NCBI GenBank assembly: GCA_029881255.1
Contig: JAOUMY010000001.1
Location: 744,001-808,000, forward strand
Length of the DNA stretch: 64,000 nucleotides
Source: Gammaproteobacteria bacterium
GTDB lineage: Bacteria > Pseudomonadota > Gammaproteobacteria > S012-40
Direction of reading: 5' to 3'
This document shows, piece by piece, positions 3,397-44,604 of the stretch (positions are counted from its first letter, which is position 1; the number at the start of each line of letters is the position of its first letter). Made by a program: the position numbers and the translations under genes. The notes below the pieces were generated by a model, which worked only from the letters and a program-made list of their open reading frames with translations, ran no database searches and was not told the origin of the DNA.

Positions 3397-3412
3397 TAGG
3401 GGAGTATCAAAT

Positions 3413-22899: not shown

Positions 22900-25800
22900 A
22901 TGAATTTAGTCACACTTTTCACGCTTGCAAAAGAAAAGAACATGTATGTTCTTGCGCGTGCCTGTGTGACGAACAACTCATTCTCTGAAGTTTTCACTCG
23001 TGACATTGTAAAAAAATTTAGCCGTCGTTTTTTATTCCTTTTATATATATTCATATTTTCGGGCTTTCTGTTTTCCCATTCCGCATTTGCAGTAGACAAA
23101 ATATTTTGGTCTGACACCGTAAACAAAAATATTTCACGCGCCAATCTTGACGGTTCATCTCCAGAAGATGTCTGTACCAGTGCCGACGGTGTGGTTACTG
23201 GGCCGAATGCATTGGCAGTTGATACGGCAGGTGGAAATCTCTTTTGGTTGGAGAGTGGCGGTGTGTACAAATCTGGTTTGGCGCCGCCCTGTTCGCGCAC
23301 TCTCGCATTTGCAGTGGCGAATATCTCTGCCAGTGGTTTGGAGTTTGATCCGGTCAATAGCAAGCTTTATTGGTTTAACACCTCTAAGCAATTGCAACGC
23401 GCCAATATCGATGGTACGAGTCTGGAGACGTTTACCAATTTTACGCCTACGGGGACGCCTAATCAGATAGCGCTTGATCCGATAGTAGGAAAAATATATT
23501 TCGTTGAGCGCGTAGTTTCGAACTACTTTATTCAAAGTGCCAATATGGATATGACCGGTGGTTCAACCACTGTTTACGATAATGCTACAGGGACGATAAA
23601 CGGTTTGGAAGTGCGACCAAATATCGGAATTCTATATTTTACAGATCAAAGTTTTTCAATCGTAAGGCGAGTCAACACTGACGGTACAGGGGTGTCCGAT
23701 GTATTGATTTCACCCGATGTGGATCAGCCCTTCGGTATCGCAATCGACGAACGCAACAATAATCTATATGTCGCTAACTTCGGTGGTGATCAACTGACAT
23801 CTGCAGGGTTTGACGGATCGCTGCCTACCACAATACTCAATCCGACAGGTACATCCATCTGGGATGTTGAGCTCGCGCTTGCCGACGATACCAATATCGC
23901 CTTCCACCCATCAGCAAACGGTACGACAAATAATTTTTCTACGCCAAACTGCGGTGGAGTCGCGAACTGGCAATGTGTTAACGATCAGGCTGGTGATGCC
24001 ACTGAAGGTCCGGTGGATTTAAACGACGCTGGAACGACTATTGACAGTACCGCAGCCGGCCGCGAGATGTTTAATCTCGTTGATAATCCTTCTTCGTTAC
24101 CCACTGGTACAACTATAACCGGTATTGAAGTATTCGCACGAGTGGGTCGTGCAGCCGCAGGTGCAGCTCCCTCACTACAGTTGAGTTATGACATTTCTGG
24201 AACGCCGGTAGACGGAGTATCCCAGTCAGGGCTGGCGAAATCCTGTTGTTCGGATTTGGTGTCACAGGCGTGGACAGGTCTGGCCTGGTCAATAACTGAC
24301 TTCAATGCCTTGCAAGTCGGTGTCGTTCACGATGGTGCCGGAACGTTTATGCTGAGCCAGATGTGGGTAACCGTGACATACACGATTCCACCCGTAGGCA
24401 CCAATAGCATCTCCGGGCGCATTTTTAATGATGCGGATTTTAATGGAACGGCTGCCGACTACGATGGCGGTACCAATGACGTCAACTTATCTGGGGTCGA
24501 TGTCGAGTTATACGATAACTCAAATGTCTATATCACCTCGGTAACCAGTGATGCCAGCGGCTATACGATTCCGAGTCTTCCGGATGGAACGTATAAGCTT
24601 AGGGCCAGAGTCGAGTCGATTAGCGCGACCAACATTCCTGAGATGACGGGCGCCTATGACAGCGGTTCTTCCGGTTTTGTCGCAAAGTATGGTGGCGCGG
24701 ATGCAGCTATTTCTGACACCGCAACCGCAAACAATGCTGGGCCGGGTGACAACTACACGACCATAACGCTTTCGGGTGGCAATGTAAGCAATGCCAATAT
24801 TGGTTTTGCCTATAATTTAATTACTAATGTTAACGATAGCGGACAAGGTAGCTTGCGTGAGTTTCTTGAAAACGCGAACGCTGGTGTGTTGGGTGCAAAC
24901 AATAAAGTCAGCCAATTTAGAATTGGCGTCGCCACTAACCAAAGCAATGCTACTGATGCCTGGTGGCGGATAAATCCCGCGTCTGCGTTTCCTCTATTTA
25001 ACGTTAATGCATCTGGCATTTCCATCGACGCATCAACGCAAGCGATTAACTCTGGAGTAGATAGTAATACACGCGGCCCCGAGATTGAGTTAAACGGAAC
25101 TGCATGCGCGAGTTGTAGTGGCTTTAATCTTAGCGCGGCCACAAACGTGACGATTAAAGGTTTCGCGATTAACCAATTTCCCGTTTACGGTATCAGCATT
25201 CCGATTTCAGCGACAGGTACAATTGTCCGAGGCAACTATGTCGGTACGGACGCGATCGGTAGCAATGACATGGGTAACGCTTCCTACGGTGTAAGTATCT
25301 CGGCCAACAACGTAACGATAGGCGGAACCAGCGCCGGTGATAGAAACGTTTTGTCTGGAAACAATAACTGGCAACTGCGGGTAGGCTCAGTTACCAATTT
25401 GTTAGTTCAGGGTAATTATATTGGAACGAATTATCTTGGTAACGCAGTGCTTACGAACGATGTATTGGTAACGGGAATTTTTCTATCTGGCTCCAATGCT
25501 ACCATCGGTGGTTCTGCAGCCGGTGCGGGAAATATCATTGCCGGAAATGATAACGGTATAGGGACCAACGGCGCGGTAACCAATCTAACAGTACAGGGGA
25601 ATATTTTTGGTACTGATAGCACCGGTACGATCTCTATGCCGAATCGTCGTGATATATCGCTTTCGACGTCTGCGGCAACGTCCAATATAAAAATTGGAGG
25701 CGTGTTGCCCGGTGAAGGTAACGTCTTGGCGAACGCTGGTTTCGACTACGGTATTTTGCTCGACATCGTAAACGGAACGAATGAATTTAGCGGTAACACT

Positions 25801-28800: not shown

Positions 28801-31800
28801 ACCATCGGTGGGACCAGTGCCGGTTATCGAAATGTGATTTCGGGGAACTCTCAGTCCGGTATCTATCTCAGTGCGGCTAGCAATAACCTGATTCAGGGCA
28901 ACTACATCGGCACAAACGACACAGCTACAGCTTCAATACCGAATGCTTTTTATGGTGTGCATATTGTAGGCGCCTCAACAGCAAACACGATTGGTGGCAG
29001 CGTAGTGGGTGCGCGAAATATCATCTCGGGTAATGCCGACGACGGAATACATATCACCGGTGCCGGTACCAACGGCAATATTGTGATTGGTAACTATATT
29101 GGTACTGATCGACTTGGCAGTTCCGTAATTGGAAATAGCAATGGTGTTGGGCTTTACCTAGGCGCACAATCAAACACCATCGGTGGCACGAACCCTGGTG
29201 AAGGCAACGTACTCTCGGGTAATAGCAGTGGTGTATTCATAACCAGCGCCGGTACCAGTTTTAATACTATTCTAGGTAACTATATCGGTACGGACGCGAC
29301 AGGTATGTTGGACCTGGGCAATACCAGCAGCGGTGTTCGCTTAGGCACCAGCGCGGACAGCAACACCATTGGTGGAACAACAGCAGCGGCACGGAATATT
29401 ATTTCCGGTAACAATATCAACGCCATTCAAATCGCAACCAGCTCAAATACTGTTCAAGGCAACTATATCGGGGTGAATGTCACCGGAGATGCGGCGATTA
29501 ATAACGGTACGGGTATTATTATACAGAGTCCCGCAACAAACACCGTCATCGGTGGTGCCACCGCTGCTGCGGGTAACGTGATCGCCGGTAATACCAATCA
29601 CGCGATTATGAATCTGTCTACTGGTACGACAGATATCCAAGGTAACTATCTGGGTACCAATAGTGCGAGTGACGCACTGCCCAATGGCCTGATGGGTCTA
29701 TTCTCAAACAACGGTGTGATTAATCTCGGTAAAACCGGGGATGCGCAGCCCAACGTGATTGCGGCGAATGGCGATGATGGCATTCAGCTGCAAACCGGTA
29801 CCATCAATCTCGGCAGTACTGTTGATGTAAACGACTTGATGGATCTGCAATCGGGTACGCTAAATCTTGCCGATAGTACGCTGAACCTAAGCGGCGACTG
29901 GTTAAATACTGCGGCGACAATTACTGTTGGCACTTCCACCGTGACACTAGACGGTACGGCCCTACAAACGATTACAACTGCGGCAGGCAACTTCAATAAT
30001 CTTAGTGTTACCAATGCATCTGCCTCAGGCGTTTTCTTCGCCGATGGTTTTAGCTCGGCGAACTTCACCAATACGACGCCTGGCAGTCGTATGACTTTTG
30101 CTGCAGGGGGCACCTATACAATTTCAGGAACGTTAAACCTAAATGGTCAAGCAACGGGTACAAAAGTAGTTCTGGTTTCGTCGTCTCCTGGTGCTCGTTA
30201 TACCTTTGATGTAACCGGTGGTCCGCAAACGGTTAATTTTGTCGATGTAACTGATTCGAATGCTTCAAGCAACAACATCACGGCGAATGACTCCACCGGA
30301 GTAGGTCAAAATAATGATAATGCGGAGACGTCACCATTCTGGATTTTTGCCGTGCCTGGTGCGGCCGTTAGTGGGACCGTGACCGATGACACCGAAGTTC
30401 AAATTCGCTCTGGTGGATCGACGATAGTCCTAACCCTAACTGGAGATACCTGGGTTGCCGCGGGAGCAACGTTCGACGCGCAACGTCAAAACATAATCAA
30501 CGGTATTGATTCAGCCCAGGCCGAAGCAAATGGTTGGGATGCAATCGTAAAGACCGGTCTTGCGCTTACCGACGTGGTGCGCACAAGTGATACGGTTGTC
30601 ACCATTACGCTACCGAGCTTTACCCACTACAACATCACTGCAAATGAAACCATTACCGCGACTATTCCGGCATCGGCATTAGTGACATCGGCGTCGCCAT
30701 TGGTCGCAACTCCAACATTTAGTATTACCAGTAGCACCGGAAGCACGATTTCGGGGATTGTGTTTGAGGACGCCAATTTTACCGGAACGGCAACCGATTA
30801 TGACAGTGGTGTAAACGATAACGCGCTAGCAAATGTTGTGGTAGCACTTTATGACAATGCCAATGTGCTTCAGCTATCGACAAGCACGCTCAACGACGGC
30901 AGCTACGCCTTTTATGATCTTGCTAATGCAACGTACAGGGTTCGCGTTATTAGCAATACCATTGCCGATGACGTCGCCGACGCGGGGAACACACCAAGCG
31001 GTGGCTTTAACGCCTGTGTGCCGGCGACGTGTTCCTATCCGCTCGCAGAAATGACCTGGGCGAATGGGGCGAAGCTCGGTGGTCTTGACAAGAATGTGAG
31101 CGACGTAGGCTCTCCGGCGCCAGGCGATACCTTCGCAAACGTTACCGTTGCAGGTGCAGATATCGCAAATTTCAATATGGGTTTTGCCTTTAACCTGATT
31201 ACCAATACCAATGACAGTGGACAAGGTTCTGCGCGTCAGTTCATTTTGAACGCCAATGCTATTGGTCCGGCCAATGCGACAACTGCCAATACGGCCGTGT
31301 TTGACGCCTCCGTGTTTCTTCCTGCGGTGGCGAAGACGATTACACCAACGTCGCCACTACCGGATATTACTGATGATGGAACCACAATTGATGGCTCTAA
31401 CAACTACGTATTGTTCAGTGGTGCATCAACCGGCGCTGGCGTCAACGGTTTCACCATCAAGTCCAGTAACAATATTTTAAAAGGATTGGGTATCCACAGC
31501 TTTAAAGGCGACGGTATCGAAATTTTTAGTGGTAGCGGTAACGTACTTGGCGGCGATATCAGTCAAGGTACGAGTACATTAAAAGAAATCCTGTACATCG
31601 TCTTCAATGGCGATGGTTTAGCGAATGGTGGAGATGCATCGGATGATGGTATCGAAATCAATAGCGACGGTAACTTTGTATATGCCACTTATCTCGGAAC
31701 AAATGGTGCCGTGTCCGAGGCGAATACCGGCAACGGTATTTATATCGCGGGTAACAATAATACCATCGGTAGCGCAGACAGTAATTTCAGTCCATTGATA

Positions 31801-34800
31801 TCCGGTAACGGAGCATCGGGTATTTTAATCGACGGTGGTTCTAACAACACCATACTGGGTAGCCGCATCGGTGTGAATTGGGATATGACAGCGACTGCCG
31901 GCAACACATTGTCGGGTATCCGAATCTCGGGTGCGGCCAGTGGCAACACGATTGGTGGCGCGGCGGCAGGCGAAGGAAACATAATTGGCGGTAACGCCGG
32001 AAATGGTATCCATCTATTCACCGGAAATACGTCTACCAACACCATGATTAAAGGTAACCTGATCGGTACCAATTCTTTAGGCGTTGCAACCATGGGTAAT
32101 ACCCAGTCAGGTATCGTGATAGACGACGGTAGCAACGTCACGATCGGTGGTCTGCTCGCCGGTGAAGGCAACGTGATAGCCGCGAATGGTGCGGCAGGTA
32201 TTGCGGTGCCAAACGGTGGTGTCGTCGGTAATGTCTATATTTATGGCAACTATATCGGAACCGATGCTAGCGCCTCTGTCATTCCAAACACAAGCATCGC
32301 CTTGAATCTGGGTACTGGTACGATCTTCCTTGGTAACGCCAGTGAAGCGCAAAGCAATATCATCGCCGCCGGTCACACGAAGGGCGTGCAAATTATCGAC
32401 ACGGCAACGGTGAATTTTGGCGGTAGCCTAACGCTGAAAGACAGCTTTAGTATTAACACCGCGACCGCAACAGCGAATCTAAATAATGCAACAATCAACC
32501 TATCGTCTGACTGGACCTATGTCGCCGGTACCGTCAATCCCGGTACTTCGACCGTAACCCTTGATGGCGCCGCCTTACAAACTGTCACTAGCGGCGCCGG
32601 AAGTTTTAACAATTTAACGGTAACGAATGCGTCGGTAGCAGGCGTAACCTTTGCCGACGGATTTAGCACGGCAAATTTCACGAATGCGACTGCCAGCAGC
32701 AAGATGACCTTCAATGCGGCGAGCACGTATACGATCTCCGGAACGATGAATTTGAACGGACAGGCCAGCGTTACCAAAATCGTTCTCGTCTCTTCATTAC
32801 CCGGTACGCGCTACACATTTGATGTGACAGGTGGCGCGCAAAGCGTTAGCTACGTCGATGTGACCGACTCTAATGCCTCGACTAACAATATCACGGCACT
32901 CAACTCAGCAGGCGTTGGACAAAACAATGACGACCTGGAAACCAGTCCGTTCTGGATATTCGCGACGACTTATTCTATTAGTGGCCGTGTCTTCGAAGAC
33001 GCAAACTTCAACGGCACATCGACACAATATGACGGTGGTGCGAGCGATATCGACCTGTCCGGCGTCGATGTCGAATTGTACGACAACAGCAATGTCTATC
33101 TGACGTCAACGACAACTGCTGTTGATGGAACGTATTCCTTCGCTGGTCTAGTCAACGGAACGTATAAAGTCAGGGTGCGCGCCGCCACTATCGACGTAAG
33201 CGCGCTACCAGAAATGACAGGCTATAAGAACGAATCGGGAACCTGGACTAATCTTTATGGTGGTCAGAATGCGACGACTTCAGACACCGCTACCGGTGAC
33301 AATGCTGGCATTGGTGATAACTATGGGGCAATAACAGTCTCCGGTGCAAACGTCAACAATATCGAATTTGGATTTGCGTATAACTTGATCGTCAACACCA
33401 ACGACAGTGGTCAGGGCTCATTGCGTCAGGTGCTGTTGAACGCTAACACCACCGGAATCGTGACTGCTGCAAAAGGTAACAATACCTCGCAATTCAGAAT
33501 GCAGGTCGCGACCAATCAAACCGATGGCATTGAGAACTGGTGGCGGATTGCGCCGACCAGTACGCTACCTTCTTTAAGCAGTAACGCGAACAACTTCGCA
33601 TTGGATGCATCGACACAGCGTTCTAATTCCGCAACCGACAGCAACACTATAGGACCGGAGATCGAAATAAACGGTGCCTCGTGCGCGAGCTGTGATGGAT
33701 TGACGCTGACAACAGCAACAGGCATTACGATCCGCGAATTTGCAATCAATGCTTTCCGCGACGGCATCAATATTGGTGCTTCTGCTTCTAATACCACAGT
33801 TGTGGGTAACTACATCGGTACCAACGCCACGGGCGTTTCGGCCGTGGCCAATAGCAGTGATGGTATCTGGGTGCAGGCGACGAATGCTGTAATCGGCGGC
33901 ACGACTGCTGCTGACCGCAACGTAATTTCTGGTAACACCGGCAACGGTATTGTAACTGCCAATACAACTACGATTACCAATATCACGATACAAGGTAACT
34001 ATATTGGAGTTAACGCGACAAACAGCGCAGGCATTGCCAACGCTGGGCGCGGTATTATGCTGCAGTCTGCTGCGGCTACATCGACTGTTGTCGTCGGTGG
34101 CGTCAACACCGGCGAAGGCAACGTGATTGCCTATAACGCTATCGGTGGTTTCTATATAGAACTGGGTGGCGGTACTCACGACATCAGCGGCAACACCATA
34201 CGCAATAATGCCAGCCATGGTTTGTATGTTTTCGCCGCAACAGGTTTGGCGATACAGAAAAACATCATTAGCAATAACGGCGACGCGGCGAGCGAATTCG
34301 GTATCGTTATTTTTGGCGGATCGGCGATTAAGCTATACCACAATACGATTTACGGCTCCTTCTCTGACGGTGTCAACATCAATGGTGGTTCCGGTTTTAG
34401 TGTCAGAAACAATATCTTTAGCAATAACGGTAACAACGCAATATCGGATAACGTCCCCGCTATCACGACGCTGAGCAATAACAACTATTTCGCCAATGCG
34501 GGTACCTGTATTGGTGGCAACTGTGGATCAGAAACCAACAGCATCACCAGTGATCCGTTGTTTGTGAATGCCGCAAGTGATGACTTCTCACTCACAGAAT
34601 GTAGCAGTGCTGCGATCAATGCCGGTGTCGATCTTGTCAGTGATCAGCCGGATATGAACGGTGCTTCTGCTGGATTGTTCACCGGTAGCGCGCCGGATAT
34701 GGGTGCCGTTGAATCGACGTGTACCAGCGGTACGGTTGCGCTGTCCGGCACCGTGACTAACGATTCAGAAACTGAAATCAGGGCAGGTGGTTCGACACTG

Positions 34801-37800
34801 GTGTTGACGCTAAGTGGTGATACCTGGGTGGCCGCCGGTGCAACGTTTGATGCCGAGCGTGCGAACATTATTAACGGATTGACTTCAGCAGGTGCTGAGA
34901 CCAACGGTTGGAACAATATTGTGAAGGCTGGCCTATTAGTAGCTAATGTGGCGCGCACCAGCGATACCGTCGTGACGGTAACTCTTCCAGCTTTTGCCGC
35001 CTATGACATCACCGCTACCGAAACAATCACGGCAACGGTTCCTGCGAGCGCCTTGACGACTTCCGCATCGGCAGTGATAGCAAGCCCAACATTTAACGTC
35101 ACGCCGAATGCAGCCACAGTCGCCTTGAGTGGAACAGTCACCGACGATAACGAAGATCAAATCCGTACCGGTGGATCGACGATCGTACTGACATTGACCG
35201 ATGATACCTGGGTATCCGCTGGCGCTGCATTTGATGCCGAGCGCACCAATATCATCAACGGTCTGACCTCAGCCGGTGCCGAGACTAATGGCTGGAACAA
35301 CGTTGTTAAGACGGGCTTGTCGGTTACCGATGTGGTCCGCACCAGTAACACCGTCGTGACAATTACACTTCCGGCATTTGCGACTTATGACATCACCGCA
35401 ATCGAAACCATCACCGCGACAGTGCCCGCAAGTGCCTTGACGATATCGGGATCGGCCGTTGTGGCCAATCCTACATTCGATGTTTTGCCTGTCGGTGTTA
35501 CCGTCACCCTAAGCGGTACAGTGACTGATGACAGTGAAACGGAAATACGTGCTGGTGGCTCAACGATAGTTCTGACACTGACAGACGATACCTGGGTGGC
35601 TACGGGTGCAACGTTTGATGCCGAGCGTGCGAACATTATTAACGGATTGACTTCAGCCAGTGGCGAAACCAATGGCTGGAACAACATTGTTAAGACGGGT
35701 TTGTTGCTTAGCAATGTGGTCCGTACCAGTAACACTGTCGTGACCATTACGCTTCCGGCATTCACCGCCTACGACATCACCTCAACCGAAACGATTACAG
35801 CCACAGTTCCCGCAAGTGCCTTGACGATATCTGCATCAGCAGTCGTAGCCAGCCCAACATTTAACGTCACGCCGATCACCGCAACCGTGGCCTTGAGCGG
35901 CACCGTCACCGATGACAGTGAAACCGAAATTCGCGCTGGCGGTTCGACGATTATTCTGACCTTGTCCGATGATACGTGGGTGGCCGCAGGTGCAACGTTT
36001 GATGCCGAGCGTGCGAACATTATTAACGGATTGACTTCAGCAGGTGCTGAGACCAACGGTTGGAACAACATTGTGAAGGCTGGTCTGTTAGTAACGAATG
36101 TGGTGCGCACTAGCGACACCGTCGTGACTGTTACGCTTCCAGCGTTTGCCGCCTACGACATCACCGCAACCGAAACGATTACCGCGACCGTTCCGGCGAG
36201 TGCCTTAACCACATCCGCATCAGCCGTCGTAGCAAGCCCAACATTTAATGTCACGCCGATCGCTGCCACTGTGGCCTTGAGTGGTACCGTCACCGACGAC
36301 AGTGAAACCGAAATTCGCGCTGGCGGTTCGACGATTATTCTGACCTTGTCCGATGATACGTGGGTGGCCGCAGGTGCAACGTTTGATGCCGAGCGTGCCA
36401 ACATTATTAACGGATTGACTTCAGCAGGTGCTGAGACCAACGGTTGGAACAACATTGTGAAGGCTGGTCTGTTAGTGACGAATGTGGCTCGCACAAGCGA
36501 TACCGTCGTGACAGTAACGCTTCCAGCGTTTGCCGCCTACGACATCACCACAACTGAAACGATTACCGCGACCGTTCCGGCGAGTGCCTTAACCACATCC
36601 GCATCAGCCGTCGTAGCAAGCCCAACATTTAATGTCACGCCGATCGCTGCAACAGTGGCCTTGAGTGGTACCGTCACCGATGACAGTGAAACCGAAATTC
36701 GCGCTGGCGGTTCCACTATCGTCTTAACGTTAAGCGACGATACCTGGGTCGCCGCCGGTGCAACCTTCGACGCGGAACGCATGAATATCATCAACGGATT
36801 GACCTCTGCCGGTGCCGAAGGTAATGGCTGGAATAACGTCGTTAAGACGGGCTTGTCGGTCACCGATGTGGTCCGTACAAGTAACACCGTCGTAACTATT
36901 ACGCTGCCAGCGTTTGCAACGTACGACATCACCGCGACAGAAACAATTACGGTCACCGTGCCTGCCTCGGCACTTACAACATCTGCTTCAGCAGTCGTCG
37001 CCAGCCCGACGTTTGATGTGACTTCTGTCGGCACTACAGTGGCACTAAGCGGAACCGTCACCGACGATAGCGAAACAGAGATCCGTGTCGGTGGCTCGAC
37101 AATTGTCCTGACACTGACCGACGATACCTGGGTAGCCGCCGGTGCAACTTTCGATGCCGAGCGTGCGAACATTATTAATGGTCTGACCTCGGCAGGTGCC
37201 GAAACCAACGGCTGGAATAATATTGTGAAAGCTGGTCTGTTAGTAACGAATGTGGTTCGCACCAGCGACACCGTCGTGACAATTACACTTCCGGCATTCA
37301 CCGCCTACGACATCACCTCAACCGAAACGATTACAGCCACAGTTCCCGCAAGTGCCTTGACGACTTCTGCATCCGCAGTGATTGCCAGCCCAACCTTGAA
37401 TGTAACTCCAATTACTGCAACAGTAGCCTTGAGTGGTACCGTCACCGACGACAGTGAAACCGAAATTCGCACTGGTGGCTCGACGATTGTTCTGACATTG
37501 ACCGATGATACCTGGGTTGCTACCGGTGCAACGTTCGATGCCGAGCGTACGAATATTATTAACGGTCTGACGTCGGCTGGTGCCGAAACCAACGGCTGGA
37601 ATAATATTGTGAAAGCTGGTCTGTTAGTAACGAATGTGGTGCGCACTAGCGACACCGTCGTGACTGTTACGCTTCCAGCGTTTGCTGCATTCGACATCAA
37701 CGCGAGCGAAACAATTACTGTCACTGTACCTGCGTCAGCGCTAGTGACGACTGCATCCGCACTTATTGCTTCGCCAACATTTGATGTCATTCCAACGACT

Positions 37801-40800
37801 ACCACGGTCGCGTTGAGCGGTACGGTCGTCGACGATAGCGAACTGGATATTCGTAACGGCGCTTCGACGATCGTGTTGACGCTCAGTAACGATACCTGGA
37901 TAAGTGCTGGTGCGACATTCGATGCCGAACGCGCCAACATTATTAACGGATTGACTTCGGCAGGTGCCGAGAGCAACGGTTGGAATAATATTGTTAAGCC
38001 CGGTCTGACTCCGGCAAACGTCGTACGCACCAGTAACACCGTTGTCACGATTACGCTTCCGGCATTCGCCACCTACGATATCAACGTAATGGAAACCATC
38101 ACCGCTACCGTACCAGCGTCTGCACTGAGCACTTCAGCGATACCAGTGGTGGCTAGCCCAACATTTGATGTCACACCTCTGAGTGCAAGCGTCGCTCTGA
38201 GCGGAACTGTTGTAGACGATAGCGAACTCGATATACGTAATGGCGGTTCGACCATCGTGCTGACGCTTACAAATGATACGTGGTTAGCTGCTGGCGCTGC
38301 CTTCGATGCCGAACGGGCGAATATCATCAATGGTCTGACGTCTGTCGGCTCCGAAGCCAATGGATGGAATGCGCTTGTAAAAGCAGTTCTATCGCCAGTC
38401 GATGTTGTACGCACCAGTAATACCGTCGTAACGATAACGTTGCCGCCGATAGCGACTTACGATATTACAAACATTGAAACCATAACAGCGACGATTCCGG
38501 CGTCCGCTCTGAGCTACTCGTCAGTTGTAGTCATTGCCAGCCCAACATTTGATGTCAAACCCGTTAGTGGCGTTGTTGTTTCTCCGATCAGTGGGCTCCT
38601 GTCGGAAGCGGGCGATACGGCAAGTTTCAGCGTGGTGTTAAATGCAATACCAAGTGCGGATGTGGTAATTCCAATAAGCAGTTTGGATACGACTGAAGGT
38701 GTGGTGGACAAGTCCAGCTTGACCTTTACGTCAACCAACTGGAATGTCGCTCAGCTAGTGACTGTAACAGGCGTAGACGATGTGGAAATTGATGGCGATA
38801 TCACTTTTATTGTTGAAGTCGGCGATCCCGTGTCAGGTGATAGTGCATACGATGTGTTGAGCAACGCCGATACCGCCGATGTGTCGGTTACAAACCGCGA
38901 CAACGATCAGGCTATCATTAGTTTCGAGTCGGCGACGAGTAATGTTGTTGATGAAATTGCGAGCAATGTGTCGATTAATGTACGCCTGAATTTGCCAGCC
39001 GGGCAGACGACTACGGATATGAGTATTGAAGTTGCAGATGCACAGGACGGTTCGGCCAGATCGGGTGTGGACTATGTGGCCTTGCCAGTGACAGTGCTGA
39101 CTTTCCCTGCAGGCTCTGTAGACGGTGCTACGCAATCGATTACGATGACAACTATCGCCGACACCGTAATGGAAGGCGAGGAAACGATACGTCTGCGACT
39201 GCAGAACCTGTCAGGTGCTAATGCGGCGATTGGTGCACAGGATACTCACCAGGTCCGCATAACAGACATCGCCAATGTAAAGACCAGCAGCAGCGAAAAA
39301 TCTTTTTCCGCGGCAGAACCTGATCTCGTGAACAGTGACGGTGTGGCCTACACGATAATTACCGCAAATATTCTTGACGACAACCAGCAGCCTTTGGCTG
39401 GTCATACGATCTTGTTTAGTTCAGACCGAAATACTGACGATGCGGTGGACATTTTTGAAACTATGGATAGTGTGTCCAATGTCAAACTTGCTTCCTACAA
39501 AGCTAACCGTCGACATAATCTCAAGCCGAACCAAACAACGGAATACCGCGCTGTGTCTGATTACGATGGTAAGGTCAGCGTGAAACTATTGTCGAATACG
39601 CCTGGACAGACGACGATTAATATCTTTAACGAAACCGACAACTACGCCTTGCGTTCGCCAACCTATATTTTCTTTACCCGCGGGGAAATTCTGAAGCTCA
39701 GTGGTGAGCTGAATCCTGTGCATGCGTTACGCGGTGATGTTGTGAATTACCAATATATCATCCGCAATGACACCGACTATTTTGTCGACCCTGCTTATAT
39801 GCATTTGACCCTGCCGCTGGGCGTGAAATATGTGCCAGGTAGTTTGCGCATCAATGGCGCAGTTGCCAACGAGCCTGTGTACCAGAATACGCTCAAGATA
39901 GACTTGGGTGTTGTGCCTGGAAACAACGATTTGAATTCTAATGATCGTGCCGATCCCGGTGAATCAGGTTATGTCGTGGTGACGCTGCAAGCAGTACTGG
40001 GCTCTCGCGTAATGCCGGGCAGTTACGATAGCTACGCATATATTGTCGATGCGTGTGATGATTGCGTGGTGTCAAATACGGAAAAATTATCATTGCGCGT
40101 AGACGACGATGCCTTGTTTGATCTGGGCACTATCATCGGTAAAGTGTTCAATGACGCCAATAAAAACGGTCTGCAGGACGAAGAAGAAAGCGGCGTACAA
40201 GGCGTCACTCTGGTACTGGATAACGGAAGTGTGGTGGTAACAGATAAGCACGGTCGCTATTACATAAATAACATCAAGCCCGGGCCACACTTGCTGAAGA
40301 TAAATAATACCAATCTGCCGGGTAATAGTAGTCTACTCGATCTTGATCACAAGATTGTTAATATCACGCCTGGCTTGTTGGCCACGGCGAACTTCCCTAT
40401 CGACGAAAAAGGCGATATGACGACCATAGGTAGCGATACCATTTACGGATTGAAAGTCTCGCGCAGTACCAGCGAAAAGAATATTCTGATCGCGGGTAAT
40501 ACGTCTTCCATGAATCTGATCGTTGACGGTCAGAACATCAGTTTCCCAAGAAGTCGTGTGCAGTTGGATGGCGATTCACAAAGTCACATCGACATAAGCA
40601 GTGATCGCATTGAGATTCCTTTCCTGGTGACGGTACAGGAACGCGAACAGATTAAAGCCTGGTCTATTGTTGTTGCGTCGAGAGACGGTCAGGAATTGAA
40701 GTCTATAAACGGCAATGGCGCGCCAGAACAAAGAGTCGTATGGAACGGTTTGCTAAAAGATGGCAACGCATTGCCAGGTGGTAAAGTGTATAGCTATCAA

Positions 40801-43800
40801 TTCCAGGGTGCCTATACGAATGGCAAGAAGATCACCAGCGCCAGAAAACTGTTTACGGTGACCAATAATACGGCCTTCGCAAAAGCATTTCCAGATAGCG
40901 GTTTTGATAAGGCTAGCGGCCAATTAACGACAACGGGTCAAGCCTTCCTGCAGGAATTGACCGATATCGCGAAGAACTACAAGCGTCCGAGCATATTTAT
41001 ATCTGTTGAAGCGCCGAAGGACAACGCAAGTGCTGAAGAGATAAACGCCCTACGCGCGCGCGCCGCGCAGTTGCGAGACTGGATGAGTGCGCAAGCCGAG
41101 ACGTCCGGCAAGAATATTATCATCAAGTCTAATGTAAGTGACAAAGTAAAACGTTCGGCTTTGAAACTAAGCGTAGTGCTGAGCGGTAACGAATCTAAAG
41201 TCGAACTTAGAGATCAATATCGGCGTCAGCCAAGTGCGGAAATCAACGGTAAGCCATTTACTGTCGATCAATACGGTCGATTCACAGAAAATTATAACCT
41301 GGGCGTCTCGCAAGAATTGGTCATTAAACTGACAAACGAGTCTGATGAGTCGGTCATCGCGAATATTCCGTTACCAGAATTCCGCATTATCTTCCCGGAT
41401 GATGAAGTCACCGTGCAGTATGGTCAGAAGACCAATGATCTTGAAGTGTTGGCATCGGATTACAATCCAAACCTGACAGCAAAGGATATCGTTGCGCGTC
41501 AAATCATACGGGGTGAGGCATCGCCGGGTACAGAGGTCAAGATTAACGGTCTGAATGTGTCAGTCGCTGATGATGGAAAATTTACGACGCCGGTCAGTCT
41601 GACGTCCGGTAAAAATGTTATCGGTATTGAATCAACCCGCGCGGATGCGCGTAAGCGACTAATCAATATCTTTATCGATGTAACCGATAAAGAAAAGAAC
41701 GGACAGCCTATTGTTGCCGCTAATCCGATTCCGCATCTATCAGTGTCCATGCCCTCTACCGAATCGCCTATCACCAGTAAAGACGTAGTGGTTTCGGGCA
41801 CGACATCGCCTGGAAATAAACTAAGCATCAACCAGCAAGAGATTGTCGTAAATCCTTCGGGTGAATTTAGTCATCAACTGTCACTTGAGTATGGTGAGAA
41901 TCCGCTAAACATGGTGGTAACCGATGAGCAGGGCAATAGCGGTACGATAGAAAAGAATATACAAGTGGTGAAGAACAAGTTATTCATGCTCGCCTTTGGT
42001 GACGGTAAAGTCGGTTATGAATCGATCAAAGGCCAGGGCAAGAGTGGTTTCTACAGTGACGGGCGTCTGGCCTTTTATCTAAAAGGGCACATCAAGGGTG
42101 AGTACCTGATTACCGCGGCCCTGGATACCGAGCGTGGAAGTTTCAGCGAGCTGTTTAAAGATCTGAATAAACAACAGACCAGGGAATTCGTGGCTAATCT
42201 GGATAAAGACAGCTATTACCCGGTCTATGGCGATGACAGTAGTTTGCTCAACGAAACCCAGAGTCAGGGCAAGCTATTCCTGGCAGTATCGTCTGATGAA
42301 ATCGAAGCCATATTGGGCAACTATGCGCTGAATTTTAACAATGCCGAATTGACCCGTTACCAACGCAACTTCTACGGCCTCAAGGCGCGTTACTATCAGA
42401 TGTCGAGTGAAGAAAAAGGCAGGGTGGATTCACAGGTCGTTACCTTTGTTGCACAAAATCCGACCGTGCATATTACCAATTATCTGGAGGCCACCGGTGG
42501 TTCGCTGTACTACCTCAGCAATCGCGATATCGTGGCTGGTAGTGAAAATCTGCAAATCATTGTGCAGGACCAGCAAACCGGGTTGGTACTGAGCAGGGAA
42601 AAACTCCAACGCGAGATCGATTACGATGTTCAATACGCGAATGGACGTATTTTACTGACCACGCCGTTGCAGCAATATGTTGAATCAAGCTCATTGATCA
42701 GCAACTATGTTCTGCAAGGAAATAAGATTCTTATTCAGGCGGACTACAATATCGAAGGTAGTATCATGGATAAGACCGCTGCCGGTATGCGTGTGGATCA
42801 GAAACTGACAGATCAGGTTACGGTCGGTGCGAGCTACATCGATGATGGTAGTGATGGTCAGCACTATCAGCTCTCAGGCGCGAACATCAACATCAAACTT
42901 AAGCCAAACACGCAATTTGCGCTGGAAAGTGCCTCGTCTAAAGGCGCAACACCGAATATTCTCTATAGTGATAACGGTGGTCTGACTTACGAACAACGCG
43001 ATGACGACACCGATAAACGTGGTGATGCGTGGAAGTTCTCTACACAAGTGGATGTCGGTGAGTGGTTTAATCAACCGGATAAGTATAGTTTCAAGGCCTA
43101 TGTGTTGAAGCAGGAAGCGGGTTTCAGAAGCAGTAATCGCCTCCTGTCTTTCGCTGAACGTCACTATGGCGTCAATACCGATATCAAGTTAGACAAGACG
43201 TCGAGCGCGCACATTGGGTATACCGTTGACTCGATAGATATCACTGAACAGGATCAAACCGCGCGTACCGACACGGGCGTGATCAAGTTGAGCAAGACTA
43301 TCAGCGCGGTGACTGCATCCGGTGAGCTGCGAACACAGACCTTGCTCGATCGTGAGCGAGACGTGTTGTCCAAAGAGAATACAGCAGCGGCGAAACTGAG
43401 CTGGCGCGTAAATGAGAAATTGCGTATCGATGCCAAGCATCAGCAAAACATCACCGGCGAAAGCAAGCAGACCTCTAGCGCAGGCACCGAGTTGCAATTG
43501 ACGCAAACCATTGCACTGAACGCCGTTGCCGCAACAGGAACCGAAGGTCAAAGTCTACAAGTTGGCGCGAAGGTGAAACTGGATGAGAGCAGTATCTATG
43601 TGAACAGGCGCATGACGAACGACACCTCTGCGGAAACAGAGTCGACTATACTCGGAGCAGAATCCCGTATGTCACCGGGACGTCGTTTGTATACCGAATA
43701 TCAGTGGCGTGATTTCAGCGCCGAAAAAGAACAGGCCTCTTTGCTGGGTATAGAACAGGCCTGGGCGCCGACAGAGCATTTACGATTGAAGACGTTTGGC

Positions 43801-44604
43801 GAGTATACCGATCTGACACGTTCCGCTGACGAGAAAAAACGTCATGCGGGTGGTATCAAGTTGATCATGAAGCTGCCAGGCGTCGATGCTAATAGCCAGA
43901 ACGAGGTGCGCAGGGAGCGAGGCGATACCAGCCTGATTCAATACCTGAGCGCCAACCGTCTAGATCTGCAAATCAGCGAGGATTACAAACTGCTGACCAG
44001 CATCCGGGTGAGCCGTAGTGAGGCCCTCGATAGTGGTCGCCTGATGTCCAGGTTTAATGACCAAAGCCTTGGTCTGGCCTATCGTCCAATGAGTCACACC
44101 CACTACAATGGTCTGCTACGCATTGCACGCTACGAAGACTATAAAGAGAATCTGAATGACAGTCTCAGCCTCGTCGGATCGGCAGAAGGCAGCTATGCGC
44201 TACGCCATCTGATGGGCTGGATGAAACGCTATTCGTGGGTTCAAAAACATCAGCGCAAACTTTCATGGCTAAGCGATGTGGAATGGGTGCAGAAAGTGGC
44301 GTTCAAGCGTAAACGCTTCAAGGGCAATGACAATACAGATTTGACCAGCGATAGTCTGATGACCATCACCCATTTCAACTACAACTTCTACCGTCAGTTT
44401 GACGTGGGTCTGGAGTACCGCACCCTGAGCAACAGCCTGGCCAATGACCTGCAACGGGGCTGGTTGACCGAGGTGAGCTGGCGAGCAAACCCTTATTTAC
44501 GCGTGGGAACAGGTATCAACTTTAGCCACTTCTCCGACAATATTCTCAGTGACAACGAGACCTCTAGCCGTGGACTTTTCCTGCGCATTCAGGGTAACTA
44601 CTAA
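22900..44604 (+). CDS. Giant multidomain surface protein with a C-terminal outer-membrane barrel-like region
   Basis: A single uninterrupted 7,234-residue frame. Residues 1-64 form a long signal peptide (hydrophobic core FLFLLYIFIFSGFLF, cleavage AFA-VDK). 65-330: YWTD-like beta-propeller (DKIFWSD, SKLYWFNT). 331-500: unrecognised beta-rich domain. 502-3945: SdrD-like domains (ISGRVFxDANF) alternating with right-handed beta-helix repeats (GNYIGTDATG, NTIGG, RNVISGN). 3948-5227: ten 128-residue repeats. 5228-5460: Calx-beta type. 5461-5735: Ig/DUF11-like. 5743-5830: a fifth SdrD domain. Then FlgD-Ig-like (VWNGLLKDGNALPGGKVY), OmpA-like (5991-6095), two Ig-like modules, and 6358-7234: alternating amphipathic strands ending in an aromatic residue (RIQGNY), as in outer-membrane barrels. 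Likely a self-anchored adhesin or surface scaffold. The start is uncertain: ATG 22942 or GTG 22966 are alternatives, and none has a strong ribosome site. Confidence 0.93.
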   Translation: MNLVTLFTLAKEKNMYVLARACVTNNSFSEVFTRDIVKKFSRRFLFLLYIFIFSGFLFSHSAFAVDKIFWSDTVNKNISRANLDGSSPEDVCTSADGVVTGPNALAVDTAGGNLFWLESGGVYKSGLAPPCSRTLAFAVANISASGLEFDPVNSKLYWFNTSKQLQRANIDGTSLETFTNFTPTGTPNQIALDPIVGKIYFVERVVSNYFIQSANMDMTGGSTTVYDNATGTINGLEVRPNIGILYFTDQSFSIVRRVNTDGTGVSDVLISPDVDQPFGIAIDERNNNLYVANFGGDQLTSAGFDGSLPTTILNPTGTSIWDVELALADDTNIAFHPSANGTTNNFSTPNCGGVANWQCVNDQAGDATEGPVDLNDAGTTIDSTAAGREMFNLVDNPSSLPTGTTITGIEVFARVGRAAAGAAPSLQLSYDISGTPVDGVSQSGLAKSCCSDLVSQAWTGLAWSITDFNALQVGVVHDGAGTFMLSQMWVTVTYTIPPVGTNSISGRIFNDADFNGTAADYDGGTNDVNLSGVDVELYDNSNVYITSVTSDASGYTIPSLPDGTYKLRARVESISATNIPEMTGAYDSGSSGFVAKYGGADAAISDTATANNAGPGDNYTTITLSGGNVSNANIGFAYNLITNVNDSGQGSLREFLENANAGVLGANNKVSQFRIGVATNQSNATDAWWRINPASAFPLFNVNASGISIDASTQAINSGVDSNTRGPEIELNGTACASCSGFNLSAATNVTIKGFAINQFPVYGISIPISATGTIVRGNYVGTDAIGSNDMGNASYGVSISANNVTIGGTSAGDRNVLSGNNNWQLRVGSVTNLLVQGNYIGTNYLGNAVLTNDVLVTGIFLSGSNATIGGSAAGAGNIIAGNDNGIGTNGAVTNLTVQGNIFGTDSTGTISMPNRRDISLSTSAATSNIKIGGVLPGEGNVLANAGFDYGILLDIVNGTNEFSGNTVRNTTRTGIYVLNGTNLVVQKNTVYNTGSSAGDDGATLFQGTGTKFYHNTFYNNFERGLDIATGAASVVAQNNIFVNETLHGINDPNNRLVTLSNNAYFNNGTACAGTLCASETGTVTSDPLFVNVASGDFSLTECTSPAVEAGLDLGGSQPDMNGASAGNFTGTAPDMGAIESSCGIVYSNISGRVFDDANFTGTTSAYDGGASDLNLAGVDVELYDNSNVYVSSTATAADGTYSFASLADGTYKVRVRSATINVSALPEMTWANGSALLGGQNKSVDDTSTADNAGIGDTYTTVAISGVDVTNVDFGFAYNLIVSNNDSGQGTLRQFLTNANSGATTSKSSVFDTSVFIPATPAQITLLSNLPTMTSGSITIDASNAGVVIDGNAKTYHCVWIASSNNTVKGLTIQNCTQWGVQVQSGTGNTIGGDNTVGSVIANVNNGEGNIIINNGTISSYGGIKLTSNDNFVYGNLVGTDGTTAQGNTGYGIYVLGDGNTIGGTTAAQRNVSSGNVYGIYFVSANNNIVQGNYFGTNIDATAAIPNTTDGVRFAAVSNGNIVGGLVAGSANVIAGNTSRGIYHSTTNPTDTNNVYGNFIGVNEGGTSIPNGNGIYMMNGTLNLGNDAEVQTNIFGPVTSTVLTLTSNATINMAGTFDINGTMTMAGGNLNMGTANITYAGASWNNNSVATVDPGTSSIVFDGTSSQSIKTGSLASWNNIEIKNSGTVTLQDGLAANNFTAQTPNTWINFASGATYTINGAFTINGQASGTPVKLRSTGAQYTLNVTSGPQQVYFASVQDSNAASNDIRAYNSTNVSGNDNLDVSPHWVFTTAIVTTNNNDSGAGSFREALTTATAGDVIIFDTSVFNPSAPATISLASSLPAMSVGDVLIDASNAGVVLDGANFYNCIQISSNNNTVRGLKIQNCIASGVNIISGTGNTIGGDSTVGSVIAGVTHGQGNIVVNNAQNGIRIASNNNFVYGNLLGTTGTAAAPNIIDGVYILGSSNTIGGTSAGYRNVISGNSQSGIYLSAASNNLIQGNYIGTNDTATASIPNAFYGVHIVGASTANTIGGSVVGARNIISGNADDGIHITGAGTNGNIVIGNYIGTDRLGSSVIGNSNGVGLYLGAQSNTIGGTNPGEGNVLSGNSSGVFITSAGTSFNTILGNYIGTDATGMLDLGNTSSGVRLGTSADSNTIGGTTAAARNIISGNNINAIQIATSSNTVQGNYIGVNVTGDAAINNGTGIIIQSPATNTVIGGATAAAGNVIAGNTNHAIMNLSTGTTDIQGNYLGTNSASDALPNGLMGLFSNNGVINLGKTGDAQPNVIAANGDDGIQLQTGTINLGSTVDVNDLMDLQSGTLNLADSTLNLSGDWLNTAATITVGTSTVTLDGTALQTITTAAGNFNNLSVTNASASGVFFADGFSSANFTNTTPGSRMTFAAGGTYTISGTLNLNGQATGTKVVLVSSSPGARYTFDVTGGPQTVNFVDVTDSNASSNNITANDSTGVGQNNDNAETSPFWIFAVPGAAVSGTVTDDTEVQIRSGGSTIVLTLTGDTWVAAGATFDAQRQNIINGIDSAQAEANGWDAIVKTGLALTDVVRTSDTVVTITLPSFTHYNITANETITATIPASALVTSASPLVATPTFSITSSTGSTISGIVFEDANFTGTATDYDSGVNDNALANVVVALYDNANVLQLSTSTLNDGSYAFYDLANATYRVRVISNTIADDVADAGNTPSGGFNACVPATCSYPLAEMTWANGAKLGGLDKNVSDVGSPAPGDTFANVTVAGADIANFNMGFAFNLITNTNDSGQGSARQFILNANAIGPANATTANTAVFDASVFLPAVAKTITPTSPLPDITDDGTTIDGSNNYVLFSGASTGAGVNGFTIKSSNNILKGLGIHSFKGDGIEIFSGSGNVLGGDISQGTSTLKEILYIVFNGDGLANGGDASDDGIEINSDGNFVYATYLGTNGAVSEANTGNGIYIAGNNNTIGSADSNFSPLISGNGASGILIDGGSNNTILGSRIGVNWDMTATAGNTLSGIRISGAASGNTIGGAAAGEGNIIGGNAGNGIHLFTGNTSTNTMIKGNLIGTNSLGVATMGNTQSGIVIDDGSNVTIGGLLAGEGNVIAANGAAGIAVPNGGVVGNVYIYGNYIGTDASASVIPNTSIALNLGTGTIFLGNASEAQSNIIAAGHTKGVQIIDTATVNFGGSLTLKDSFSINTATATANLNNATINLSSDWTYVAGTVNPGTSTVTLDGAALQTVTSGAGSFNNLTVTNASVAGVTFADGFSTANFTNATASSKMTFNAASTYTISGTMNLNGQASVTKIVLVSSLPGTRYTFDVTGGAQSVSYVDVTDSNASTNNITALNSAGVGQNNDDLETSPFWIFATTYSISGRVFEDANFNGTSTQYDGGASDIDLSGVDVELYDNSNVYLTSTTTAVDGTYSFAGLVNGTYKVRVRAATIDVSALPEMTGYKNESGTWTNLYGGQNATTSDTATGDNAGIGDNYGAITVSGANVNNIEFGFAYNLIVNTNDSGQGSLRQVLLNANTTGIVTAAKGNNTSQFRMQVATNQTDGIENWWRIAPTSTLPSLSSNANNFALDASTQRSNSATDSNTIGPEIEINGASCASCDGLTLTTATGITIREFAINAFRDGINIGASASNTTVVGNYIGTNATGVSAVANSSDGIWVQATNAVIGGTTAADRNVISGNTGNGIVTANTTTITNITIQGNYIGVNATNSAGIANAGRGIMLQSAAATSTVVVGGVNTGEGNVIAYNAIGGFYIELGGGTHDISGNTIRNNASHGLYVFAATGLAIQKNIISNNGDAASEFGIVIFGGSAIKLYHNTIYGSFSDGVNINGGSGFSVRNNIFSNNGNNAISDNVPAITTLSNNNYFANAGTCIGGNCGSETNSITSDPLFVNAASDDFSLTECSSAAINAGVDLVSDQPDMNGASAGLFTGSAPDMGAVESTCTSGTVALSGTVTNDSETEIRAGGSTLVLTLSGDTWVAAGATFDAERANIINGLTSAGAETNGWNNIVKAGLLVANVARTSDTVVTVTLPAFAAYDITATETITATVPASALTTSASAVIASPTFNVTPNAATVALSGTVTDDNEDQIRTGGSTIVLTLTDDTWVSAGAAFDAERTNIINGLTSAGAETNGWNNVVKTGLSVTDVVRTSNTVVTITLPAFATYDITAIETITATVPASALTISGSAVVANPTFDVLPVGVTVTLSGTVTDDSETEIRAGGSTIVLTLTDDTWVATGATFDAERANIINGLTSASGETNGWNNIVKTGLLLSNVVRTSNTVVTITLPAFTAYDITSTETITATVPASALTISASAVVASPTFNVTPITATVALSGTVTDDSETEIRAGGSTIILTLSDDTWVAAGATFDAERANIINGLTSAGAETNGWNNIVKAGLLVTNVVRTSDTVVTVTLPAFAAYDITATETITATVPASALTTSASAVVASPTFNVTPIAATVALSGTVTDDSETEIRAGGSTIILTLSDDTWVAAGATFDAERANIINGLTSAGAETNGWNNIVKAGLLVTNVARTSDTVVTVTLPAFAAYDITTTETITATVPASALTTSASAVVASPTFNVTPIAATVALSGTVTDDSETEIRAGGSTIVLTLSDDTWVAAGATFDAERMNIINGLTSAGAEGNGWNNVVKTGLSVTDVVRTSNTVVTITLPAFATYDITATETITVTVPASALTTSASAVVASPTFDVTSVGTTVALSGTVTDDSETEIRVGGSTIVLTLTDDTWVAAGATFDAERANIINGLTSAGAETNGWNNIVKAGLLVTNVVRTSDTVVTITLPAFTAYDITSTETITATVPASALTTSASAVIASPTLNVTPITATVALSGTVTDDSETEIRTGGSTIVLTLTDDTWVATGATFDAERTNIINGLTSAGAETNGWNNIVKAGLLVTNVVRTSDTVVTVTLPAFAAFDINASETITVTVPASALVTTASALIASPTFDVIPTTTTVALSGTVVDDSELDIRNGASTIVLTLSNDTWISAGATFDAERANIINGLTSAGAESNGWNNIVKPGLTPANVVRTSNTVVTITLPAFATYDINVMETITATVPASALSTSAIPVVASPTFDVTPLSASVALSGTVVDDSELDIRNGGSTIVLTLTNDTWLAAGAAFDAERANIINGLTSVGSEANGWNALVKAVLSPVDVVRTSNTVVTITLPPIATYDITNIETITATIPASALSYSSVVVIASPTFDVKPVSGVVVSPISGLLSEAGDTASFSVVLNAIPSADVVIPISSLDTTEGVVDKSSLTFTSTNWNVAQLVTVTGVDDVEIDGDITFIVEVGDPVSGDSAYDVLSNADTADVSVTNRDNDQAIISFESATSNVVDEIASNVSINVRLNLPAGQTTTDMSIEVADAQDGSARSGVDYVALPVTVLTFPAGSVDGATQSITMTTIADTVMEGEETIRLRLQNLSGANAAIGAQDTHQVRITDIANVKTSSSEKSFSAAEPDLVNSDGVAYTIITANILDDNQQPLAGHTILFSSDRNTDDAVDIFETMDSVSNVKLASYKANRRHNLKPNQTTEYRAVSDYDGKVSVKLLSNTPGQTTINIFNETDNYALRSPTYIFFTRGEILKLSGELNPVHALRGDVVNYQYIIRNDTDYFVDPAYMHLTLPLGVKYVPGSLRINGAVANEPVYQNTLKIDLGVVPGNNDLNSNDRADPGESGYVVVTLQAVLGSRVMPGSYDSYAYIVDACDDCVVSNTEKLSLRVDDDALFDLGTIIGKVFNDANKNGLQDEEESGVQGVTLVLDNGSVVVTDKHGRYYINNIKPGPHLLKINNTNLPGNSSLLDLDHKIVNITPGLLATANFPIDEKGDMTTIGSDTIYGLKVSRSTSEKNILIAGNTSSMNLIVDGQNISFPRSRVQLDGDSQSHIDISSDRIEIPFLVTVQEREQIKAWSIVVASRDGQELKSINGNGAPEQRVVWNGLLKDGNALPGGKVYSYQFQGAYTNGKKITSARKLFTVTNNTAFAKAFPDSGFDKASGQLTTTGQAFLQELTDIAKNYKRPSIFISVEAPKDNASAEEINALRARAAQLRDWMSAQAETSGKNIIIKSNVSDKVKRSALKLSVVLSGNESKVELRDQYRRQPSAEINGKPFTVDQYGRFTENYNLGVSQELVIKLTNESDESVIANIPLPEFRIIFPDDEVTVQYGQKTNDLEVLASDYNPNLTAKDIVARQIIRGEASPGTEVKINGLNVSVADDGKFTTPVSLTSGKNVIGIESTRADARKRLINIFIDVTDKEKNGQPIVAANPIPHLSVSMPSTESPITSKDVVVSGTTSPGNKLSINQQEIVVNPSGEFSHQLSLEYGENPLNMVVTDEQGNSGTIEKNIQVVKNKLFMLAFGDGKVGYESIKGQGKSGFYSDGRLAFYLKGHIKGEYLITAALDTERGSFSELFKDLNKQQTREFVANLDKDSYYPVYGDDSSLLNETQSQGKLFLAVSSDEIEAILGNYALNFNNAELTRYQRNFYGLKARYYQMSSEEKGRVDSQVVTFVAQNPTVHITNYLEATGGSLYYLSNRDIVAGSENLQIIVQDQQTGLVLSREKLQREIDYDVQYANGRILLTTPLQQYVESSSLISNYVLQGNKILIQADYNIEGSIMDKTAAGMRVDQKLTDQVTVGASYIDDGSDGQHYQLSGANINIKLKPNTQFALESASSKGATPNILYSDNGGLTYEQRDDDTDKRGDAWKFSTQVDVGEWFNQPDKYSFKAYVLKQEAGFRSSNRLLSFAERHYGVNTDIKLDKTSSAHIGYTVDSIDITEQDQTARTDTGVIKLSKTISAVTASGELRTQTLLDRERDVLSKENTAAAKLSWRVNEKLRIDAKHQQNITGESKQTSSAGTELQLTQTIALNAVAATGTEGQSLQVGAKVKLDESSIYVNRRMTNDTSAETESTILGAESRMSPGRRLYTEYQWRDFSAEKEQASLLGIEQAWAPTEHLRLKTFGEYTDLTRSADEKKRHAGGIKLIMKLPGVDANSQNEVRRERGDTSLIQYLSANRLDLQISEDYKLLTSIRVSRSEALDSGRLMSRFNDQSLGLAYRPMSHTHYNGLLRIARYEDYKENLNDSLSLVGSAEGSYALRHLMGWMKRYSWVQKHQRKLSWLSDVEWVQKVAFKRKRFKGNDNTDLTSDSLMTITHFNYNFYRQFDVGLEYRTLSNSLANDLQRGWLTEVSWRANPYLRVGTGINFSHFSDNILSDNETSSRGLFLRIQGNY
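24403..26337 (+). repeat. SdrD plus beta-helix unit A of the giant protein
   Basis: Residues about 502-1146. It opens with SISGRIFNDADFNGTA and the LYDNSNVYITS strand, then the junction NDSGQGSLREFLENAN, then beta-helix rungs. It closes with a cap DPLFVNVASGDFSLTEC...PDMGAIES, like choice-of-anchor Q domains. The same cap closes unit D, so A and D are related copies. Confidence 0.8.
26338..28281 (+). repeat. SdrD plus beta-helix unit B1 of the giant protein
   Basis: Residues about 1147-1794. It opens with NISGRVFDDANFTGTT, passes NDSGQGTLRQFLTNAN into helix rungs with NTIGG motifs, and ends with a different cap, SSIVFDGTSSQSIKTG followed by WNNIEIKN and QDSNAASNDI. Units B2 and C share this cap type. 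Confidence 0.75.
28282..30366 (+). repeat. Beta-helix unit B2 of the giant protein (no SdrD domain)
   Basis: Residues about 1795-2489. It begins directly at the junction TTNNNDSGAGSFREAL with no SdrD domain, unlike the other units. It has many rungs with YIGTDATG, NTIGGT and RNIISGN, and ends with the cap STVTLDGTALQTITTAAG, NFNNLSVTNAS and DSNASSNNI. It looks like a duplicated helix that lost its SdrD lead-in. Confidence 0.75.
30367..30750 (+). repeat. Isolated copy of the 128-residue repeat
   Basis: A single unit with the same signature as the tandem block 4 kb downstream: VSGTVTDDTEVQIRSGGST, DTWVAAGATFDAQRQNI, NGWDAIVKTGL, VVRTSDTVVTITLP and ETITATIPASALV. It is more diverged than the tandem copies and sits between beta-helix units B2 and C. 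Confidence 0.85.
30742..32970 (+). repeat. SdrD plus beta-helix unit C of the giant protein
   Basis: Residues about 2615-3357. Opens with TISGIVFEDANFTGTA, includes an inserted Cys-containing loop (ACVPATCSYPL), then NDSGQGSARQFILNAN, beta-helix rungs, and the B-type cap STVTLDGAALQTVTSGAG with FNNLTVTNAS and DSNASTNNI. Confidence 0.75.
32971..34734 (+). repeat. SdrD plus beta-helix unit D of the giant protein
   Basis: Residues about 3358-3945. Opens with SISGRVFEDANFNGTS and NDSGQGSLRQVLLNAN, has a shorter beta-helix and closes with the A-type cap DPLFVNAASDDFSLTEC...PDMGAVEST. The similarity to unit A extends to the segment with WWRIAPTS, DASTQ and NGASCASCDG, so A and D are the closest pair. 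Confidence 0.78.
34741..38580 (+). repeat. Ten tandem 384-bp (128-residue) repeats
   Basis: Units start at 34741, 35125, 35509, 35893, 36277, 36661, 37045, 37429, 37813 and 38197, each exactly 384 bases apart with no insertion or deletion. Each encodes LSGTVTDDSETEIRAGGST, DTWVAAGATFDAERANI, NGLTSAGAETNGWNNIVK, VVRTSDTVVTVTLPAF and ETITATVPASAL. The middle units are nearly identical in DNA (units 4 and 5 differ at roughly fifteen positions by eye), while the last two are more diverged (SELDIRNG), the pattern of recent internal amplification. Likely a stalk of Ig-like beta domains. Confidence 0.95.

Follow-up and report, generated by a model that had tools for sequence, protein, structure and literature searches.

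A predicted outer-membrane barrel of about 40 strands at the end of a giant gammaproteobacterial surface protein, with split-gene relatives and a FecR, kinase and cyclase neighbourhood

The window, which here means the whole stretch of 64,000 nucleotides that was analysed, contains a single uninterrupted and intact open reading frame (22900-44604, forward strand) that encodes a protein of 7,234 amino acids, in agreement with an earlier sequence-only reading, which had described an intact 21.7-kb gene. Upstream of it lie a protein kinase-like gene (20632-21567, reverse strand) and a YicC-like endoribonuclease gene (21585-22457, forward strand), neither of which shows any sign of belonging to the giant gene, and riboswitch searches gave no Rfam match upstream of it or within the window. 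It is followed on the same strand by genes for a FecR-domain protein, a membrane sensor histidine kinase and a response regulator with a diguanylate cyclase domain (Table 1).

Table 1. Features of the giant protein and of the three genes downstream of it; positions are those of the window.
Feature	Position	Strand	Evidence
Long N-terminal leader, putative Sec-type signal peptide	22900..23094	+	Hydrophobic stretch, then AFA/VDK near residue 65, read by eye
YWTD-type beta-propeller	23095..23889	+	Pfam Ldl_recept_b, E 1.5e-11 at residues 66-108; extent read from sequence
Alternating SdrD_B domains and right-handed beta-helix segments	24409..34578	+	Pfam
Ten-unit tandem stalk, about 128 residues per unit (residues 3946-5223)	34735..38568	+	
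Calx-beta domain	38899..39267	+	Pfam, E 4e-12
DUF11-like region and last SdrD_B (residues 5745-5801)	39673..40302	+	SdrD_B E 8e-11; DUF11 by position in homologues only
FlgD-Ig-like and degenerate OmpA-like domain, peptidoglycan-binding type	40537..41214	+	Alignment with Pfam-clear OmpA homologues
Two Ig-like (Glucodextran_B) domains just before the barrel	41488..41967	+	Pfam, E 4e-11; AF2 model residues 25-184
Predicted C-terminal barrel, about 40 strands, ending GLFLRIQGNY	41977..44601	+	AF2; structural alignments (porins, SprA, ushers); family alignment; beta-signal
Small beta insert after about strand 7, plug-like position	42505..42717	+	AF2 secondary structure
FecR-domain protein: N-terminal membrane anchor, FecR, C-terminal Glucodextran_B Ig	44798..46108	+	Pfam FecR, E 1.3e-7; family alignment
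Membrane sensor histidine kinase (HAMP-HisKA-HATPase)	46115..47947	+	Pfam
Response regulator with GGDEF diguanylate cyclase domain, GGEEF motif intact	47931..48932	+	

The chain of domains proposed from the letters alone, namely a YWTD propeller, SdrD domains, beta-helices, a ten-unit stalk and a Calx-beta domain, was recovered in full by Pfam searches and repeat analysis. SdrD_B domains occur at five places in the protein, four of which (residues 504-571, 1150-1224, 2617-2686 and 3360-3432) fall in the stretch shared with the beta-helices. A stray eleventh stalk unit is found far upstream of the array, at residues 2489-2611 (30364-30732), between two beta-helix segments. The remaining segments of the proposed chain stood in part: DUF11 goes undetected in the window protein but is clear at the same place in homologues, the FlgD-Ig match remains below the Pfam cut-off (E 0.026) here and sub-threshold in homologues too, and the OmpA-like domain is degenerate in the window and visible only by its alignment with homologues, in which Pfam OmpA is clear (E 1e-22 to 1e-24). 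The composition of the chain breaks near residue 5860, before which there are 26 cysteines and 1.3% lysine, and after which 1,374 residues contain no cysteine and about 6% lysine.

From around residue 6360, the last approximately 875 residues are predicted to form a closed barrel of about 40 strands. The AF2 model, calculated from residues 6173-7234 together with 76 homologues (pLDDT 85, pTM 0.75), is composed of two Ig-like domains followed by about 40 long strands. Its secondary-structure listing contains 41 elements, one or two of which are doubtful, giving a strand count of 38-41 that does not fix the parity, and an even number near 40 is likely. In structural alignments, porins of 12-16 strands place their first strand on the first strand of the model and their last on its last, and since they bridge the two, the modelled barrel must be closed. 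A second AF2 prediction, of a stand-alone barrel protein from Granulosicoccaceae that is about 25% identical and was given its own alignment, has as many elements and is closed in the same way; the two jobs are not fully independent, because their alignments were drawn from overlapping families. Barrel geometry with an assumed tilt of 36-40 degrees gives a C-alpha diameter near 70 Å for 40 strands, which would be wide enough in principle for folded domains to fit the lumen, and the barrel is predicted to be among the largest single-chain outer-membrane barrels known. A barrel of this kind and size, which the prediction supports well, is in line with the sequence-only reading, which had pointed to about 877 barrel-like residues, far more than in the classic autotransporter barrel and ending in an aromatic residue, and had named structure prediction and a search for homologues as checks.

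The small beta insert adjoins and overlaps the most conserved stretch of the barrel family, in which the columns TGGSLYYL, GSE, DY and GR are invariant. The module has no family in Pfam or NCBIfam; neither single-protein nor profile searches of the PDB returned a credible sequence relative, and a fold search against BFVD gave no meaningful match. Pfam matches to Imm42, Big_10 and similar families are below the cut-off and were taken as chance.

Searches with the last 877 residues of the window protein found the module in 18 of 95 related genomes, in 31 of 229 sampled genomes of the window's gammaproteobacterial class, and at no fewer than 562 loci in GTDB genomes from many phyla. The same C-terminal region is thus present in very many genomes, and for this reason the architecture represents a family and not a one-off. 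Among the best 80 of these at least 562 loci, the hosts are Gamma-, Beta- and Alphaproteobacteria, Campylobacterota, Nitrospirota, Omnitrophota, Acidobacteriota, Myxococcota, Thermodesulfobacteriota, a Brocadiaceae bacterium and Fodinibius. Outer-membrane barrels typically end in a motif of the type G-W-F-x-x-x-x-G-x-[YF]. The module is the C-terminal end of the protein in 76 of the best 80 homologues, and 73 of these 76 end in an aromatic residue within such a GWFxxxxGx[YF] beta-signal, while the number of residues ahead of the module ranges in this set from 0 to more than 4,000. A divergent third group (L035, L036, L037, L038, L039 and L041), with proteins of about 780-2,290 residues, matches mainly the first 340 or so positions of the barrel profile. 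An open frame of 11,777 residues with the module, larger than the window's protein, occurs in another genome of the class (G124:C2:461356-463992). No description of the family was found in the literature on DUF11/OmpA proteins, SprA-size barrels, FecR/GGDEF systems and giant autotransporters, which is weak evidence, as coverage of subscription journals was thin.

Beyond what the sequence-only reading had covered are relatives encoded by split genes, a cut within their OmpA domain and the trio of genes downstream. In 32 of the best 80 of at least 562 loci, the barrel is a separate protein of about 1,200-1,400 residues with its own leader, encoded directly downstream of a large gene of the DUF11/SdrD/OmpA kind, often with a short overlap, and in the split species both the giant and the barrel protein have a signal-peptide-like N-terminus. 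A further 34 of the 80 were classed as fused by the rough rule of 640 or more residues ahead of the barrel, under which L106 and L119 may in truth be split, and 14 were left unclassed, mostly because contigs end. The barrel tree has two main sides, the window's clade of 22 rows, with 15 fused and no split loci, and another side that is mostly split; it requires 6 changes between the fused and split states, versus 22.7 expected by shuffling.

In about 15-20 of the split pairs, the cut lies inside the OmpA domain: the giants end with positions ~6-81 of the OmpA HMM, and the barrel proteins begin with positions ~82-118, immediately behind their leader. About 15 pairs show both halves, and a few more show the giant's half alone. 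As a control, OmpA ends were recognised by score in 15 of 21 real barrel N-termini, compared with 1 of 4,200 shuffles, and the N-terminal OmpA piece of a split barrel protein is folded by AF2 as beta-alpha-beta. In one split group, mainly betaproteobacterial, the barrel protein contains the whole OmpA domain. A cut inside a domain points to the fission of a fused ancestor. Giant and barrel are two parts of one system, and the OmpA halves may reassemble in the periplasm, docking the one to the other. The conserved order, the split pairs, the cut OmpA domain and the gene trio are well supported from sequence.

The Ig domain of the FecR-domain protein and those that precede the giant's barrel belong to one Pfam family. 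On the tree of the best 80 of at least 562 loci, a FecR gene lies directly 3' of the barrel in 14 of the 22 rows that make up the window's clade, whereas the other side, with 48 rows, has none; L070, the sister of the window's clade, has a FecR gene after the barrel as well. Where the contig continues, FecR is nearly always accompanied by the kinase and usually by the cyclase. In counts uncorrected for kinship, a FecR gene at high score is present in 8 of the 229 genomes of the class sample and in 11 of the 95 related genomes, including all 8 with a close, window-type barrel, one of which (G023) shows only the end of the barrel at a contig edge; as exceptions to adjacency among these 8, barrel and FecR are 13 kb apart in G092 and on different contigs in G009 and G011. 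Two or three response regulator-GGDEF genes in a row follow the kinase in L050, L051 and L070, suggesting duplication of the cyclase. Just beyond the trio in the window lies a gene on the reverse strand with GAF and HD_5 (HD-GYP-like) domains (50209-51399), a possible c-di-GMP hydrolase near the cyclase. The likely reading of the trio is that the FecR protein passes the giant's state to the kinase and on to c-di-GMP. For the reverse, in which c-di-GMP would control display, the receptor required was not found.

The OmpA-like domain bears on the topology of the protein. OmpA C-terminal domains bind peptidoglycan through an Asp and an Arg, which are kept in the homologues with a clear OmpA match and, by alignment only, at the same positions in the window copy; the stretch just before the barrel is therefore probably periplasmic. 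A row of ten stalk units, each the size of an Ig domain, would exceed the width of the periplasm, and the N-terminal part therefore most likely lies outside. Its passage through the protein's own barrel, in the manner of an autotransporter as the sequence-only reading had suggested, would be the simplest route. With OmpA between passenger and barrel, the chain must then leave the periplasm and return, unlike in classic autotransporters, and close cysteine pairs in the passenger, which would impede threading through the pore of a classic autotransporter, speak against this route.

Several known systems share parts of this arrangement. Type Va autotransporters have a C-terminal translocator of 12 strands and about 250-300 residues (PF03797). 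The window protein resembles them in its N-terminal passenger with beta-helical parts, C-terminal barrel, putative Sec-type leader and aromatic beta-signal, and differs in its approximately 40 predicted strands, in the OmpA and Ig domains that separate passenger and barrel, and in split relatives that are cut inside OmpA; PF03797 had no Pfam match in it or in the tested homologues. In two-partner secretion, the TpsB/Omp85 partner consists of POTRA domains and an Omp85 barrel. The split relatives recall TpsA/TpsB in that a giant exoprotein and an outer-membrane barrel are encoded by adjacent genes, but here the partners share a cut OmpA domain, and Ig-like domains precede the barrel instead of POTRA, with no Pfam match to POTRA or Omp85. 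FimD/PapC ushers, with 24 strands, have a similar plug-like insert after about strand 7 and align with the barrel's first half (Z 16, rmsd 13 Å), while the usher family PF00577 had no Pfam match in the window protein or the tested homologues. FecI/FecR cell-surface signalling employs a sigma factor partner and a TonB-dependent transducer, whereas the FecR domain here has a histidine kinase and a GGDEF regulator as adjacent partners.

For comparison of size, the type 9 secretion translocon SprA has 36 strands and LptD 26 (PMC9581022). SprA is a single-chain barrel of the size class predicted here and gives the longest structural alignment, but the barrel described here carries its own giant passenger and lies outside Pfam SprA_N (PF14349), which had no match in 11 members of the barrel module or in the window genome, the same search being positive in Fodinibius. 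Fodinibius salsisoli (L116 genome; L150/L151) encodes both SprA and this barrel. SprA and the profile of the barrel described here match weakly and locally at the plug-like insert (9.3 bits); with an hhalign probability of 19%, membership in the SprA family was rejected and the match kept as a lead. Another giant surface protein, LapA, is secreted by a type I system and released by a protease that a c-di-GMP receptor controls (PMC3032545). The likeness to LapA/LapD is that a giant, repetitive protein of the surface is combined with a c-di-GMP circuit; here, a FecR protein, a kinase and a cyclase adjoin a barrel-anchored protein, and the chain ends in a barrel strand with an aromatic beta-signal rather than in the C-terminal type I signal, free of any outer-membrane barrel, that marks the LapA type. 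The arrangement resembles an autotransporter or a two-partner system on a barrel of SprA's size, and departs from each in a defining feature.

The reading preferred here, with a probability of roughly 0.55, is that of a self-anchored giant surface protein which its own barrel holds, which its OmpA domain pins to the cell wall, and which is linked to c-di-GMP signalling. The protein would be exported by Sec, and BAM would insert its last ~875 residues, forming one closed barrel of about 40 strands. The OmpA-like and the two Ig domains would stay periplasmic and tie the protein to peptidoglycan, and the N-terminal chain of about 5,800 residues, with propeller, beta-helices and stalk, would be displayed outside, most likely after passing the protein's own wide barrel lumen. 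Related bacteria would have this machine as two proteins, giant and barrel, that dock by completing the split OmpA in the periplasm. In the window's clade, the FecR protein, anchored in the inner membrane, would report the state of the barrel protein to the histidine kinase and diguanylate cyclase, and engagement of the surface would in this way change c-di-GMP.

The barrel could instead be an anchor or receptor only, with the giant reaching the surface by type I or II secretion and being held there by the barrel and OmpA. The position of OmpA between passenger and barrel would fit this, and the passenger's cysteine pairs would suit folded passage by another system, but in the window a single chain, starting with a putative Sec-type leader, comprises both giant and barrel, each protein of the split species has a signal-peptide-like N-terminus of its own, and the C-terminus is an outer-membrane beta-signal and not a type I signal, all of which make this explanation rather unlikely. 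Still less probable is a wide, SprA-like secretion channel for other cargo, to which the giant would be an attached accessory or the first substrate. SprA does align over 627-646 residues, that is, the whole barrel (Z 13.5-13.9, rmsd 12-13 Å), and the local sequence match falls at the plug-like insert; however, no motor or cargo-signal genes were recognised in the neighbourhood, the partner that is conserved is a single dedicated giant protein, and SprA_N is not matched.

The barrel may also be as described and the trio an unrelated operon that lies downstream by chance, which is the least probable of these alternatives. It would account for the 194-bp gap between the giant and FecR genes in the window and for the few genomes (G002, G004, G010 and G217) with FecR but no detected barrel, as well as those in which the two are far apart. 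Within that gap, however, there is no promoter- or terminator-like site on this strand, adjacency of barrel and FecR recurs across Gammaproteobacteria, Nitrospirota, Acidobacteriota and Eisenbacteria, sometimes with overlapping genes, and the two co-occur in 8 of 8 cases in the survey of 95 genomes.

A wider proposal, put forward tentatively, is that these proteins constitute an undescribed outer-membrane export and display system of many phyla, with a barrel of about 40 strands, which would be the largest so far in a single chain, that exports and holds giant surface proteins in cis or, once the gene has been split, in trans by natural complementation of the divided OmpA domain, and in one clade with outside-in signalling through FecR to c-di-GMP. 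If true, about 40 strands in one chain would exceed the 36 of SprA and raise the upper size limit of outer-membrane proteins. Through the natural cut in OmpA, the recognition between giant and barrel becomes directly testable; the trio, in turn, suggests a new route from the cell surface to c-di-GMP.
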